Shown here piece after piece: positions 788-5,574 of a DNA stretch of 64,000 nucleotides. Within the stretch, counting starts at the first letter, position 1. Every line of letters begins with the position of its first letter. The stretch covers positions 1-64,000 of the forward strand of contig CABZDW010000001.1 of assembly GCA_902524545.1 (NCBI GenBank), given 5' to 3'. The notes beneath the pieces are model-generated. The model saw nothing but the letters and a program-made list of their open reading frames with translations. It made no database searches and was not told where the DNA came from. The position numbers were made by a program, and so were the translations under genes. This DNA comes from an uncultured Pelagibacteraceae bacterium. Its GTDB lineage: Bacteria > Pseudomonadota > Alphaproteobacteria > Pelagibacterales > Pelagibacteraceae.

Positions 788-2572
788 TTGAATAAATTTA
801 GAACTAATAAATGCAACGAATTAAGAAAAGAAAAAGTTGGAGATGATGTAATTCTTTCGGGCTGGATAAATAAAAAAAGGGACCATGGAAATCTTTTGTT
901 TATAGATTTAAGAGATAACTATGGAATAACACAGTGTACTATAGACAAAGAAAATTCTAATTTTAAAAAATTGGAAAAAATACAATTAGAAACAGTAATT
1001 AGAATTAATGGAAAAGTAGTAGCAAGATCTAAGGAGTCAATCAATAAGGATATTGAAACTGGGGAAATTGAGGTAGTAATCAAAAATTTTCAAGTTCTTG
1101 GTGAATGCAAAGAACTTCCTTTACCAGTTTTTACTGACCGTGAGTATGCAGAGGAAATTAGACTTAAGTATCGTTTTTTAGATTTAAGAAGAAAAAAAAT
1201 TCACGAAAATATAATATTAAGATCAAAAGTAATTTCATTTATTAGAAATGAGATGATTAAATTTGGATTTTTAGAATTTCAAACACCAATTTTAACATCT
1301 TCAAGTCCTGAGGGAGCAAGAGATTTTTTAGTACCAAGTAGACTAAATCCTGGAAAATTTTATGCGCTTCCACAAGCGCCACAACAATTTAAACAATTAG
1401 TAATGGTTTCTGGCTTTGATAGGTATTTTCAGATTGCTCCTTGCTTTAGAGATGAAGATGCAAGAGCCGATAGAAGTCCTGGTGAGTTCTACCAACTTGA
1501 TTTAGAAATGTCTTTTGTTGAGCAAGAAGATGTATTTAATGTAGTAGAAAAATTGTTTGTTATCACTTTCAAAAAATTTTCAAAAAAGAAATTGTTATCT
1601 GATCAATTTCCAAGAATTACTTTTAAAGAATCAATGTTGAAGTATGGAACAGACAAACCAGATCTGAGAAATCCACTTACTATAAATGATATCACCGAAA
1701 TTTTTTTAAGAGATGATGTTTCATTTGAAATATTTAAAAAACTAGTTAAATCTGGATCTAAAGTAAGATGCATTGTTACGAAAAATACAAAAGATAAACC
1801 TCGAAGTTTTTTTGACAGCATTGATAAATGGGCCAAAGAACAAGGTGCCTCAGGACTTGCTTACTTTACTATTGTAAAAGAAAAAGAAATTTCAGCAAAA
1901 GGTCCAGTAGGTAAATTTTTCTCAAAAGACTCTTTAAATGAAATAATGGTAAAAACTAAGGCCGAAGTAGGGGACAGCATTTTTCTTGCTTGTGGCAAAC
2001 AAGAGGAAGTTGAAAAGATTTCCTCACTAGCTAGAGATAAAATTGGTAAAGATTTAGATCTTATCGATGAGAATGTTTTTGCATTCTGCTGGATTGTAGA
2101 TTATCCAATGTATGAAGTAGATAATCAAACTGGTAAAATTAAATTTAGTCATAATCCTTTTTCAATGCCACAAGGAGATATCAACAAAATTGATTTTGAA
2201 AAACCATTAGAAATTCTTGCATATCAATATGATATTGTTTGTAATGGTATAGAGTTGTCATCAGGTGCAATAAGAAATCATATTCCAGATCTTATGTATA
2301 AACTATTTGATATTGCAGGTTATTCAAAATCTGATGTTGATCAAAAATTCAGCGGCATGATAAATGCACTGAGTTATGGTGCACCTCCACATGGTGGAAT
2401 TGCCCCCGGTATTGATAGAATAATTATGTTACTTGCAAATGAAAAAAATATTCGTGAGGTTACCATGTTTCCGATGAACCAAAATGCGCAAGATTTAATG
2501 ATGAATGCACCTTCTAGCGTAACTGAAAATCAACTTAAGGAATTAAACTTATCTATAAACAATAAAAAATAA
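788..2572 (+). CDS. aspS: Aspartyl-tRNA synthetase
   Basis: 594 residues, the normal length for bacterial-type AspRS, which charges tRNA-Asp with aspartate. The order is an N-terminal OB-fold anticodon domain (LSGWINKKRDHG near residue 25), class II catalytic motif 2 (FRDEDARADR near 220), the bacterial GAD insertion, and motif 3 (GIAPGIDRI near 545). The start is TTG at 788, immediately after the hda stop, preceded by AGGAGAA; no in-frame ATG gives a complete OB fold. The bacterial type may be non-discriminating (also Asn) in alphaproteobacteria that have GatCAB; this cannot be decided here. Confidence 0.96.
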   Translation: MNKFRTNKCNELRKEKVGDDVILSGWINKKRDHGNLLFIDLRDNYGITQCTIDKENSNFKKLEKIQLETVIRINGKVVARSKESINKDIETGEIEVVIKNFQVLGECKELPLPVFTDREYAEEIRLKYRFLDLRRKKIHENIILRSKVISFIRNEMIKFGFLEFQTPILTSSSPEGARDFLVPSRLNPGKFYALPQAPQQFKQLVMVSGFDRYFQIAPCFRDEDARADRSPGEFYQLDLEMSFVEQEDVFNVVEKLFVITFKKFSKKKLLSDQFPRITFKESMLKYGTDKPDLRNPLTINDITEIFLRDDVSFEIFKKLVKSGSKVRCIVTKNTKDKPRSFFDSIDKWAKEQGASGLAYFTIVKEKEISAKGPVGKFFSKDSLNEIMVKTKAEVGDSIFLACGKQEEVEKISSLARDKIGKDLDLIDENVFAFCWIVDYPMYEVDNQTGKIKFSHNPFSMPQGDINKIDFEKPLEILAYQYDIVCNGIELSSGAIRNHIPDLMYKLFDIAGYSKSDVDQKFSGMINALSYGAPPHGGIAPGIDRIIMLLANEKNIREVTMFPMNQNAQDLMMNAPSSVTENQLKELNLSINNKK

Positions 2573-3397
2573 TTATTTTTTACCTTTCAGATTAATTTTA
2601 ACATCAGATAAATCCACCAGGTTTTTTTTGTAATTATTTCTAACAAATCCTTTACTTGTTATATCTTTTACTATTTTCAGCAATTGATTTTGCTCATCGG
2701 AACCTTTTTCATCTGGTGATATAGTGTCTATATTGCCTATAGAGGGAGTGTGTGCTAAATCCTCTCTGTTAAGATAAGATATTGCGAGTTCTCTAAATAT
2801 ATAATCAAGAATTGAAGAGGCACTTAAAATTCTGTCATTACCATTTACTTTACCTGAAGGTTCAAACTTAGTACCTATAAAAGCGCTTACAAACTCATCC
2901 AGTGGAACTCCGTATTGAAGACCAAGCGATACAGCTATTGCAAAATTATTCATTAATGCTTTTACTAGCTCTCCCTCTTTGCTTGTATCGATAAAGATTT
3001 CACCAATCTTACCATCCTCGTATTCACCTGTATGTAAATAAACCTTATGGTCACCAATTGTTGCTTTTTGAATATATCCTTTTCTTCTGTCAGGCATGCT
3101 AAATCTTTTTCCAGATTTTTCTGAATTTGAAAAAGATTGAGTAACAATTTTCTCAACACTTGTTGTTTTGCTCTCATTTTGAGTTTGAACTAAATCAATT
3201 TTTTTATTTTGACTATTTTTGTTGTTGTTGGGATCAAGACTTTTTGTTTTTCTATTATCTAATTTTACATCCAGAACCTCAAATTTTCCATCATCTCTTT
3301 TTTCTAGTTTCTTGAGTTCTGTTTCATTAATATCATCTAGATAATGATTTACTTTAAAAGTACATGTATAATAAGTTTCTACAAGATATTTTGCCAT
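2573..3397 (-). CDS. Orphan C-terminal domain of class II (B12-dependent) ribonucleotide reductase, NrdJ-like
   Basis: 274 residues. From about residue 101 ([12 protein letters not shown], then [65 protein letters not shown]) it matches the C-terminal part of NrdJ that follows the catalytic barrel. The catalytic barrel itself is absent. The first about 55 residues ([26 protein letters not shown]) form a separate conserved-looking block, joined by a 45-residue Asn/Lys/Ser-rich linker. Cys12 is the only cysteine, so the zinc-binding and redox cysteines of the NrdJ tail are missing. Function unknown; it is probably not a reductase. It lies convergent with aspS, with no gap. Confidence 0.8.
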
Positions 3398-3510
3398 TTT
3401 TAAAATTCCTTAATTTAAATTTGAAATTTGAATCATTTTACTTATATACATTTACATATTTTAGTCTAATTTATTTTATACAATTTTAAATTGAAATTAT
3501 AAAATTTTGT

Positions 3511-3870
3511 ATGTTGACTTTTTTAAAAAAAATTTTCACTTGGTGGAACCGTGATACATTCGGCACTAGAATCAAAACTATCTTATCTGGCAAACTCATT
3601 GGATCAGATGAGTATGGAAATAAATATTATCAAAATAAAAAAGGAAAAAGATGGGTTATTTATGCGAATGAGATTGATGCATCAAAAATTCCTGTTGAAT
3701 GGTACTCATGGATTCATTTTATGCCAAATAAAATTGAAAATATTCATGAATTAGAAAAACATGATTGGCAAAAACCTCATCAGCCAAATTTGACTGGTAC
3801 CGACTCAGCTTATTATCCAAATAAAAACAATAAAGATGCAACTGAAAAAAAATATAAAAGTTGGAAATAA
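3511..3870 (+). CDS. NDUFA12-family complex I accessory subunit
   Basis: 119 residues, matching alphaproteobacterial homologs of mitochondrial NDUFA12 (B17.2). Visible hallmarks are GSDEYGNKYYQ near residue 31, GKRWVIYANEIDASKIPVEWYSWIHF at 45-72, and a C-terminal KPHQPNLTGT. The protein is an accessory subunit or assembly partner of NADH:ubiquinone oxidoreductase on the cytoplasmic side. The 3' end overlaps the DUF2155 gene by 35 bases, a pairing common in alphaproteobacteria. Confidence 0.93.
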   Translation: MLTFLKKIFTWWNRDTFGTRIKTILSGKLIGSDEYGNKYYQNKKGKRWVIYANEIDASKIPVEWYSWIHFMPNKIENIHELEKHDWQKPHQPNLTGTDSAYYPNKNNKDATEKKYKSWK

Positions 3871-4240
3871 TTTAAACCTATTTTTATTTGTATATTTATT
3901 TACTATATTAATAACATTTAAGATCAATGCTGAAATTAATCTTGATGGAAGTAATACTGATATAAAGATATTGGATAAGATTAGCTCTAAAAATGAGTTG
4001 ATAAAATTAGTAAATGACAAGGAGTTTATTTATAAAGATTTAGCAATTAAAAGTATAAAATGTACAGACTCTAAATTTGATGATAATCCTGAAGTTAAAG
4101 CGTATATTCAAGTGAGAGATTTGACAAAAAAAGATAGAAATAATGTTTTTGTTTTTAATGGATGGATGTTTTCATCAAGCCCTTCCATAGCACCATTTGA
4201 TCATCCAGTTTATGATATTTGGCTTGTTGGCTGTTATTAA
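3836..4240 (+). CDS. DUF2155 exported protein
   Basis: 134 residues. An N-terminal hydrophobic stretch (residues 13-31) ends at NAEIN and looks like a signal peptide. The C-terminal half carries the DUF2155 signature: cysteine in KSIKCTDS, FNGWMFSSSP, then HPVYDIWLVGC. The two cysteines may form a periplasmic disulfide. The start codon lies inside the NDUFA12 gene, so the two are probably co-translated. Molecular role is unknown. The stop overlaps the convergent accC stop in TTAA at 4237-4240. Confidence 0.85.
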   Translation: MQLKKNIKVGNNLNLFLFVYLFTILITFKINAEINLDGSNTDIKILDKISSKNELIKLVNDKEFIYKDLAIKSIKCTDSKFDDNPEVKAYIQVRDLTKKDRNNVFVFNGWMFSSSPSIAPFDHPVYDIWLVGCY

Positions 4241-5574
4241 AGTATTTTATCTTTATCTAACCAACTGACATTGAAATCAGAATCAATAAATTTTTTATGG
4301 TTGAGTAATTTTTTATGTAATGGAATTGTTGTTGTAATTCCCTCTATTACAAACTCATCTAAAGATCTATTCATTCTTTGAATCGCCTCAGACCTATTTC
4401 TACCGTGACAAATTAATTTACAAATCATGCTATCATAATAAGGTGTTACTTTATAACCTTGATATATTGCACCATCAACTCTAGTTCTGAAGCCTGATGG
4501 CTGATGACACATGCCAATCAATCCAGGTGATGGTTGGAAATTTTTACTAGCATCCTCGGCATTTATTCTACATTCTATCGCATGGCCTCTTGGATTTATA
4601 TCATTTTGGTTTAAAGCAGTTTCCCCTGAAAATGCTATCCAAATTTGTTCCTTAATTATGTCTATGCCTGTTACCATTTCAGTGACTGGATGTTCAACTT
4701 GAACTCTTGTATTCATTTCAAGGAAATAAAATTTTCCATTTTCATAAATGAATTCAACAGTCCCAGCACCCATATAACCAATTTTCGATACCATATTTAC
4801 AGTTTTTTCAAAAAGATCTTTTCTTATCTCATCAGTTAAAACTGGACTAGGAGTTTCCTCAATTAATTTTTGATGTCTTCTTTGAACAGAGCAATCTCTT
4901 TCATGAAGATGAACAACTCTATTTTTTCCAGCTAAAATTTGGACCTCAATATGTCTAGGATTTTGAAAAAATTTTTCTATATAAACTTTATCATTACCAA
5001 AATATTTTTGAGCTTCAGATTTTGCAGTTGCAAATAAAGACTCAAATTCACTTTCTTTATAAACAATTTTCATACCTTTCCCACCACCACCGCCAGAAGC
5101 TTTAATTAGAACTGGAAAACCAATTTTTTTACACAATTCTTTAGCTTCCTTAATATCTTTAACTCCACCCTCCGATCCCTCAATAACAGGTAAACCATTA
5201 TCATTAGCAATTTTTTTTGCTTGTATCTTATCACCCATCATCTCTATTAATTTTGAAGATGCACCTATGAATCTAATATTATTATCTTCAAGCGCCCTCG
5301 CAAAATTAGCATTTTCTGATAGAAAACCATAACCAGGATGAACAGCTTCAGAATTCGTGATTTCAATTGCTGATAATAGAGCTGGGATATTTAAATAACT
5401 ATTTGCTGGTTGGTGAGAACCTATACAGACACTTTCATCTGCCATTCTTACATGCATACTCTCTTTATCTACATCTGAATGAACAGCTACAGTTGAGATT
5501 CCCCATTCTTTACAGGCTCTTATTATTCTAACCGCAATCTCTCCACGATTAGCTATCAAAATTTTTTTAAACAT
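4237..5574 (-). CDS. accC: Acetyl-CoA carboxylase biotin carboxylase subunit
   Basis: 445 residues, the usual AccC length. It carboxylates the biotin on AccB using ATP and bicarbonate, the first half of malonyl-CoA formation. Visible are the N-terminal KILIANRGEIAVRI, the ATP-grasp glycine loop (GGGGGKGMK near residue 163), the HERDCSVQRRHQK segment near 236, and MNTRVQVEHPVTE near 288. ATG overlaps the accB stop by one base (TAATG), so the two are coupled. The order aroQ-accB-accC is standard for alphaproteobacteria. Confidence 0.97.
   Translation of the reverse strand: MFKKILIANRGEIAVRIIRACKEWGISTVAVHSDVDKESMHVRMADESVCIGSHQPANSYLNIPALLSAIEITNSEAVHPGYGFLSENANFARALEDNNIRFIGASSKLIEMMGDKIQAKKIANDNGLPVIEGSEGGVKDIKEAKELCKKIGFPVLIKASGGGGGKGMKIVYKESEFESLFATAKSEAQKYFGNDKVYIEKFFQNPRHIEVQILAGKNRVVHLHERDCSVQRRHQKLIEETPSPVLTDEIRKDLFEKTVNMVSKIGYMGAGTVEFIYENGKFYFLEMNTRVQVEHPVTEMVTGIDIIKEQIWIAFSGETALNQNDINPRGHAIECRINAEDASKNFQPSPGLIGMCHQPSGFRTRVDGAIYQGYKVTPYYDSMICKLICHGRNRSEAIQRMNRSLDEFVIEGITTTIPLHKKLLNHKKFIDSDFNVSWLDKDKIL

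Follow-up and report, generated by a model that had tools for sequence, protein, structure and literature searches.

The closest described relatives of the protein analysed here are the C-terminal tails of class II ribonucleotide reductases (NrdJ). In Stackebrandtia, the available part of the published account states that the C-terminal domain of NrdJ bears the redox cysteines and is needed for the oligomers induced by dATP and dGTP, an effect of the whole C-terminal domain with its zinc finger included (PMC5704485). In Pseudomonas, the tail forms a subunit of its own, NrdJb, which is reported to act mainly in disulfide exchange (PMC4520616). Burnim et al. predicted that long class II tails contain an IscU-like domain, for which, as they state, no role had been described (PMC9669993). 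In the literature, thinly covered for subscription journals, neither a free-standing NrdJ tail of SAR11 nor an NrdJ decayed except for its tail appeared among the matches listed; the NrdJ passage of a Caulobacter study gave no lead (PMC6538847).

The window, a stretch of 64,000 nucleotides from an uncultured Pelagibacteraceae (SAR11) bacterium, encodes such a tail as a gene of its own. Its open reading frame occupies positions 2573-3397 on the minus strand and runs from ATG to TAA over 274 codons, against a longest frame of 100 amino acids across 300 shuffles of positions 2001-4500. Residues 110-205 match the TSCPD domain PF12637 (49 bits; Pfam cut-off 22.8), and residues 59-263 align to positions 932-1133 of the 1222 in NF005736, the NCBIfam model of NrdJ, with an E-value of 1.2e-68 and a score of 231.7 bits that lies below the curated full-length cut-off of 1737. 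The first-pass annotation had described this gene as a free-standing NrdJ tail behind a new N-terminal block, and the matches bear this out. It let the resemblance to NrdJ begin at residue 101; the resemblance is real, the strongly conserved part begins at residue 98, and the NF005736 alignment at residue 59. The catalytic barrel is gone as proposed: neither the barrel (PF02867) nor the NrdJ N-terminal domain gave a Pfam match in the 274-residue protein, and NPCxE, which we take to be the active-site motif of NrdJ, is absent. The zinc finger that comes after the C-terminal stretch in NrdJ is missing as well.

The family alignment resolves three conserved modules separated by two variable stretches, all on the minus strand. 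The N-terminal block covers residues 1-54 (positions 3236-3397) and corresponds to the different, conserved-looking segment of 55 residues noted earlier; it is followed by the equally anticipated linker rich in Lys, Asn and Ser (residues 55-97, 3107-3235). The TSCPD or IscU-like domain spans residues 98-219 (2741-3106), and a spacer (residues 220-235, 2693-2740) leads to a conserved C-terminal stretch (residues 236-274, 2576-2692), the first part of which, 17 residues long, aligns to NrdJ.

The sole cysteine of the protein is Cys12. It is also the only one in 82 of 84 SAR11 copies, the other two having none, and in all 20 copies from more divergent family members (L216-L235). As Cys12 sits in the N-terminal block, the cysteines of NrdJ are gone from the tail protein, again as first described. 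This bears directly on a redox subunit in the manner of Pseudomonas NrdJb, which would feed electrons to a class I enzyme. The same domain does occur elsewhere as a separate gene, as the available parts of two papers tell (PMC4520616, PMC9669993), and proteins of the alphaproteobacterial family f9 that have nearly lost the barrel retain CxxC pairs. However, the counted copies of the window's family hold no cysteine beyond residue 12, which contradicts a redox role there, and the NrdA of the window's genome retains its own C-terminal CLSCQ. We consider such a subunit very improbable.

The N-terminal block seems to be private to the family. A profile built from 29 members reached E-values below 1e-3 in four of 372 genomes of the class, all of them from the window's family, and the next best match (E 0.004) extended over only 28 columns. 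A second structure model predicts, at a low-confidence pLDDT of about 65, a strand at residues 4-17, a helix at 25-29 and a strand at 38-53. Derivation from the old NrdJ N-terminus was considered and rejected on profile comparisons, which gave E 0.26 against the N-termini and 0.09 against whole NrdJ, values that would still allow an undetectably distant relation. Membership of a known family was likewise rejected, as a Pfam search with the 29 members gave scattered matches with a best E of 0.056, and PDB sequences gave a best E of 0.35.

The TSCPD domain could be modelled with more confidence. A first model from 51 close sequences had a mean pLDDT of 35; once viral tails were added, the domain reached about 90, with 75 model residues at 90 or above and a whole-model mean of 66. 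Fold comparison placed IscU (1q48) in the top row (Z 5.2, rmsd 8.0, 109 aligned residues), while other rows of IscU, SufU and CsdE mostly had Z 3.4-4.5 and rmsd 2.9-4.8, for example 2z7e with Z 4.5, rmsd 3.1 and 91 aligned. Unrelated folds reach the same Z as the IscU-like rows, so that such values may reflect a common arrangement only. Against the PDB, Foldseek returned no match at E 0.001 or better and a sequence search with the whole protein gave a best E of 0.69; against viral models, reductase proteins lead the Foldseek matches, with a best E of 7.5e-9 for a 184-residue phage protein. The modelled fold agrees with the IscU-like prediction of Burnim et al., and PF12637 and the IscU-like domain of class II tails are presumably one domain.

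Such a fold invites the idea of an iron-sulfur cluster scaffold of the IscU/SufU kind, all the more as IscU, SufU and CsdE stand among the best rows and the accessible text of Burnim et al. describes the same likeness for other class II tails (PMC9669993). The domain has no conserved cysteine ligands, however, and on the absence of these residues we reject the role. The likeness itself consists of modest Z values that unrelated folds equal, and Foldseek alone finds no PDB match at E 0.001. A scaffold function appears very improbable.

The gene is widespread amongst the SAR11 family. Relatives without it would have spoken against the first-pass reading; a tail match was found in 136 of 148 family genomes of at least 80% completeness, including all 11 that consist of a single contig; the 12 genomes without a match are all broken into some 20 contigs or more. 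Apart from one copy split over two contigs (G405) and one broken frame (G513), all matching genomes hold it at full length, and the best 80 named Pelagibacteraceae or Pelagibacterales loci encode the protein at 82-95% identity, which suggests that the window's family is the Pelagibacteraceae. Across the order, 94 of 98 genomes match, 18 of these belonging to another family (f174) that matches via NrdJ with frames of about 1200 codons in 17 genomes and of 141 codons in the remaining one (G544). Within the class as a whole, 137 of 385 genomes lack a tail match (107 of 314 among those at least 90% complete).

Selection acts on the modules very unevenly. The dN/dS ratio is 0.0056 in the TSCPD domain, 0.016 in the C-terminal stretch and 0.017 in the N-terminal block, and rises to 0.22 in the linker and 0.29 in the spacer; the whole tail gene stands at 0.050, against 0.057 for aspS, 0.064 for NDUFA12 and 0.104 for the DUF2155 gene. 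No stretch measured here is under stronger constraint than the TSCPD domain, which lies about tenfold below aspS. These ratios (Nei-Gojobori) come from 65 of the 81 tail-bearing loci, those in which all four genes were present, and from the 258 of 2080 pairs with an aspS dS below 1, pairs that are not independent of each other; when all 2080 pairs are taken, dS approaches saturation and the conserved modules still lie far under the other genes. The gene is indeed a remnant of a larger one, and a single broken frame among 136 matching genomes could be read as decay. A decaying pseudogene or an annotation accident is nevertheless contradicted by the retention at full length in all but two of the matching genomes and by ratios of 0.05 for the whole gene and 0.006 for the domain, as neither relaxed selection nor widespread broken frames are seen; we give it a negligible chance.

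In order to trace the gene's origin, its place is informative. The tail gene lies between aspS (788-2572, plus strand; named from its sequence and from its use as a query), towards which it converges, and the NDUFA12 gene (PF05071; 3511-3870, plus strand), from which it diverges. In the family loci, it is divergent from NDUFA12 in 25 of 25 cases, with aspS seen convergent in 24. The same slot holds a full nrdJ frame of 1196-1203 codons in five of five loci of f174, the other family of the order, with aspS seen in four. Among intact nrdJ genes of further families, NDUFA12 was detected, divergent each time, at 11 of 19 loci chosen from the best tail matches; in a further set of five it was present at three (L171, L246, L248) and absent at two (L172, L173). 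These two neighbours border the old nrdJ place. The region upstream of both the tail gene and NDUFA12 (3398-3510) forms a divergent promoter region conserved over 81 SAR11 sequences, in which a conserved TTAGACTAA block is palindrome-like and unlike the NrdR box.

The reductases themselves have changed between the two families. The first-pass annotation had asked for a search for nrdJ or nrdAB in the same genome. In that genome, 89% complete, we found no NrdJ barrel and a class I NrdA (NF006577) from G000:C1:89287 onward, with NrdB (NF007186) adjoining. Tail and NrdA occur without an NrdJ barrel in five of five family genomes, four of which are single contigs of 99-100% completeness. All 13 f174 genomes have an NrdJ barrel and no NrdA match, the reverse of four of four genomes of the window's family. 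A full nrdJ in the f174 slot and a class I NrdA in the window's family together indicate that the tail stayed put after a switch from class II to class I. One could instead suppose that a split class II reductase is at work and that its catalytic half escaped notice, since NrdJa/NrdJb enzymes exist. In the four single-contig genomes this is contradicted; neither in these nor in the window's own genome was a barrel, an NrdJa partner or any intact NrdJ found of which the tail gene might be a duplicated fragment, and the idea has next to no probability left.

In a tree of the domain, the family tails form one clade (100/99) that stands beside the f174 tails at values that are not firm (92/33), the bootstrap of the careful run not having settled. 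Left out of this tree were duplicates or partial sequences (L150, L174, L176, L245, L013), a domain cut wrongly to a short 33 aa (L222) and long or uncertain branches (L257, L258, L259, L260, L167, L171, L172, L173), so that the tails of family f27 and of genome G100 are missing from it.

We therefore regard an origin in place as well supported and hold it with high confidence: an ancestral nrdJ between aspS and NDUFA12 lost its N-terminal domain, its barrel and its zinc finger where it stood, with class I NrdAB in charge, kept the TSCPD domain with the short segment that follows it, and gained the 54-residue N-terminal block, the order of these steps being inferred. This places the switch from a B12-dependent reductase to one that needs no B12 close to the stem of the SAR11 family, while the other family of the same order still has the full gene in that slot.

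The SAR11 tail is not alone in having outlived its enzyme. In 12 genomes of seven other alphaproteobacterial families the barrel is lost or decayed and the tail kept (f9: G008, G241, G322; f27: G026, G158, G334; f64: G278, G356; and G183, G218, G308, G100), which with the five genomes of the window's family makes 17 genomes in eight families among the 248 that have a tail match. These cases were called from the best E-value per genome against the tail matches and from reading of the frames; the count leaves out the fragmented G064, G173 and G315, and G040, G276 and G384, whose NrdJ scores lie below full-length level. Their state of decay differs. The f9 tail stands nearly alone, with 278 aa and kept zinc-finger cysteines in G008 and a copy cut by the contig end in G322. 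In f27, the frames of G026 and G158 have 526-530 aa and no Pfam barrel (part of G334 was read). Frames of 801-910 aa without a Pfam barrel occur in G278, G356 and G183, and NrdJ homologues of that length with a well-kept tail and no recognisable Pfam barrel at L170, L241 and L243; G308, G218 and G100, the last read nearly whole, retain barrel pieces without NPCxE. G278 and G183 also hold, beside the decayed NrdJ and an NrdA-like match, a third reductase-like frame (C1:1007471-1008877 and C4:49109-50536, respectively), an enzyme that the tail could serve there. Contrary to a simple rule, G142 (f9), G256 (f27) and G063 (f64) are relatives of tail-keepers without any tail match.

Viruses also carry the tail on its own. 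A tail relative is encoded at 54 viral loci, in 15 of them as a short free frame with zinc-finger cysteines (L312 being cut at its end), for instance at 3989-4633 in L291, 3905-4660 in L298 and 1748-2449 in L303. No barrel was seen within the flanking stretches of the 15 free tails, nor any reductase match in nine longer stretches from this group; the latter cover part of the viral contigs, several of them only 4-6 kb, so that a reductase elsewhere in them is possible. In L291, the free tail lies between genes for a DnaB-like helicase and an SSB (PHROGs), and the same gene order was judged by eye in L298, L301 and L303. As a separate observation, the viral NrdJ of L287, L289, L321 and L337 match in two pieces, with a break near query residue 480 and a gap of about 1.1-1.3 kb that looks intein- or intron-like. 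Plasmid matches came from 16 records, of which the annotated ones are NrdJ; one plasmid region that was inspected bore no annotation.

Extreme conservation and survival of roughly the final 150 residues of NrdJ at the same place suggest that the tail has its own job, which may be of two kinds. The alphaproteobacterial NrdJ tail may have another task outside nucleotide reduction, for instance with the replication machinery or another partner, that outlives the enzyme in several lineages. The 12 genomes in seven other families speak for it, and among 26 intact NrdJ (L171, L172 and L173 omitted) the tail beats the barrel in conservation in 325 of 325 pairs, with median identities of 0.795 and 0.682; the very low dN/dS of the TSCPD domain relative to aspS and the 15 viral free tails, four of them seen beside helicase and SSB genes, point the same way. 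Yet Sinorhizobium meliloti is viable without nrdJ when given the nrdAB of E. coli, going by the parts available of two reports (PMC6759758, PMC4230183), which makes it improbable that the tail is essential in that species; more than a third of the class genomes, including the tail-less relatives of tail-keepers, do without it, and the viral tails still have their zinc finger and could work for an NrdJ of the host. We see this role as a serious candidate somewhat short of even, and nearly as likely as an action in trans on NrdAB.

It is this action in trans, joined to the origin in place, that we tentatively prefer as the best explanation of the whole, with confidence that stays under one half. 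In a mechanism that is possible and to be held with clear reserve, the SAR11 protein would be a non-redox, non-catalytic binding domain that works in trans on the class I reductase, as a module of assembly or control responding to dNTPs. The TSCPD domain would supply what the C-terminal domain contributes to NrdJ in oligomerisation or nucleotide sensing, and the N-terminal block would be a new adaptor; binding to NrdAB, the response to nucleotides and the role of the block are each conjectural. The tails of Stackebrandtia and Pseudomonas described above lend this mechanism support. Since the SAR11 protein lacks the cysteines, the redox half of the C-terminal job of NrdJ is gone and a role in binding or assembly remains. 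Pfam found no ATP-cone in the NrdA of the window's genome and of six other tail-keepers, nor in its NrdB (300 of about 337 residues scanned), so that an external activity switch would be useful; seen in tail-keepers alone, this absence discriminates little. Against the mechanism counts the distance of 86 kb between nrdAB and the tail gene, with no operon link, as does the presence of the zinc finger in the C-terminal domain for which the dATP/dGTP effect is described. The best NrdR-like box upstream of the tail gene had 7 mismatches in 16, and the region upstream of nrdA itself did no better than 6, which makes this comparison weak. Many tail-less genomes of the class score at NrdA level only (e.g. 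G010, G012, G014), and the class I enzymes of the class thus seem able to do without a tail. The interpretation of the first-pass annotation is partly supported: its anatomy and origin were right, and the functions it offered, a regulator or scaffold of another reductase or a repurposed fold, are candidates; it lacked the origin in place, the parallel cases and the other family of the order with the whole enzyme.

More broadly, we speculate that the TSCPD domain of NrdJ has a conserved function independent of NrdJ catalysis, so that lineages drop their reductase or let it decay and yet keep the tail, and that the SAR11 family has in this way acquired a new protein of two modules, one of them unseen elsewhere in the class; to us this generalisation is evenly poised. 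A domain that outlives its enzyme in several lineages is a natural experiment that makes the role of the IscU-like domain testable, and the SAR11 protein, small and free of barrel and zinc finger, suits that question.

Altogether, a domain already known has in SAR11 become a separate protein that has lost its chemistry, carries a block private to the family and is under very strong selection. With alphaproteobacterial NrdJ (NF005736/PRK07562) this protein shares the aligned region from residue 59 to 263 and the slot that nrdJ occupies in f174, whereas the N-terminal domain, the barrel and the zinc finger are missing from it and the N-terminal block is new. It resembles NrdJb of the split class II enzyme of Pseudomonas aeruginosa in being a tail domain made as a separate protein, but NrdJb has redox cysteines and an NrdJa partner, neither of which was found for the SAR11 tail. 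As a TSCPD or IscU-like domain, it scores above the Pfam cut-off and gives IscU-like fold rows, and differs in being free-standing, cysteine-free within the domain and fused to a private block. Comparable, too, is the f9 tail (G008, L149), likewise little but a tail at the locus of NDUFA12, from a genome of 1.4 Mb that has a class I NrdA; a common group of this tail and those of SAR11 is weakly rejected (p-AU 0.0445), and in contrast to the SAR11 protein it retains the zinc-finger cysteines and is made without the N-terminal block.
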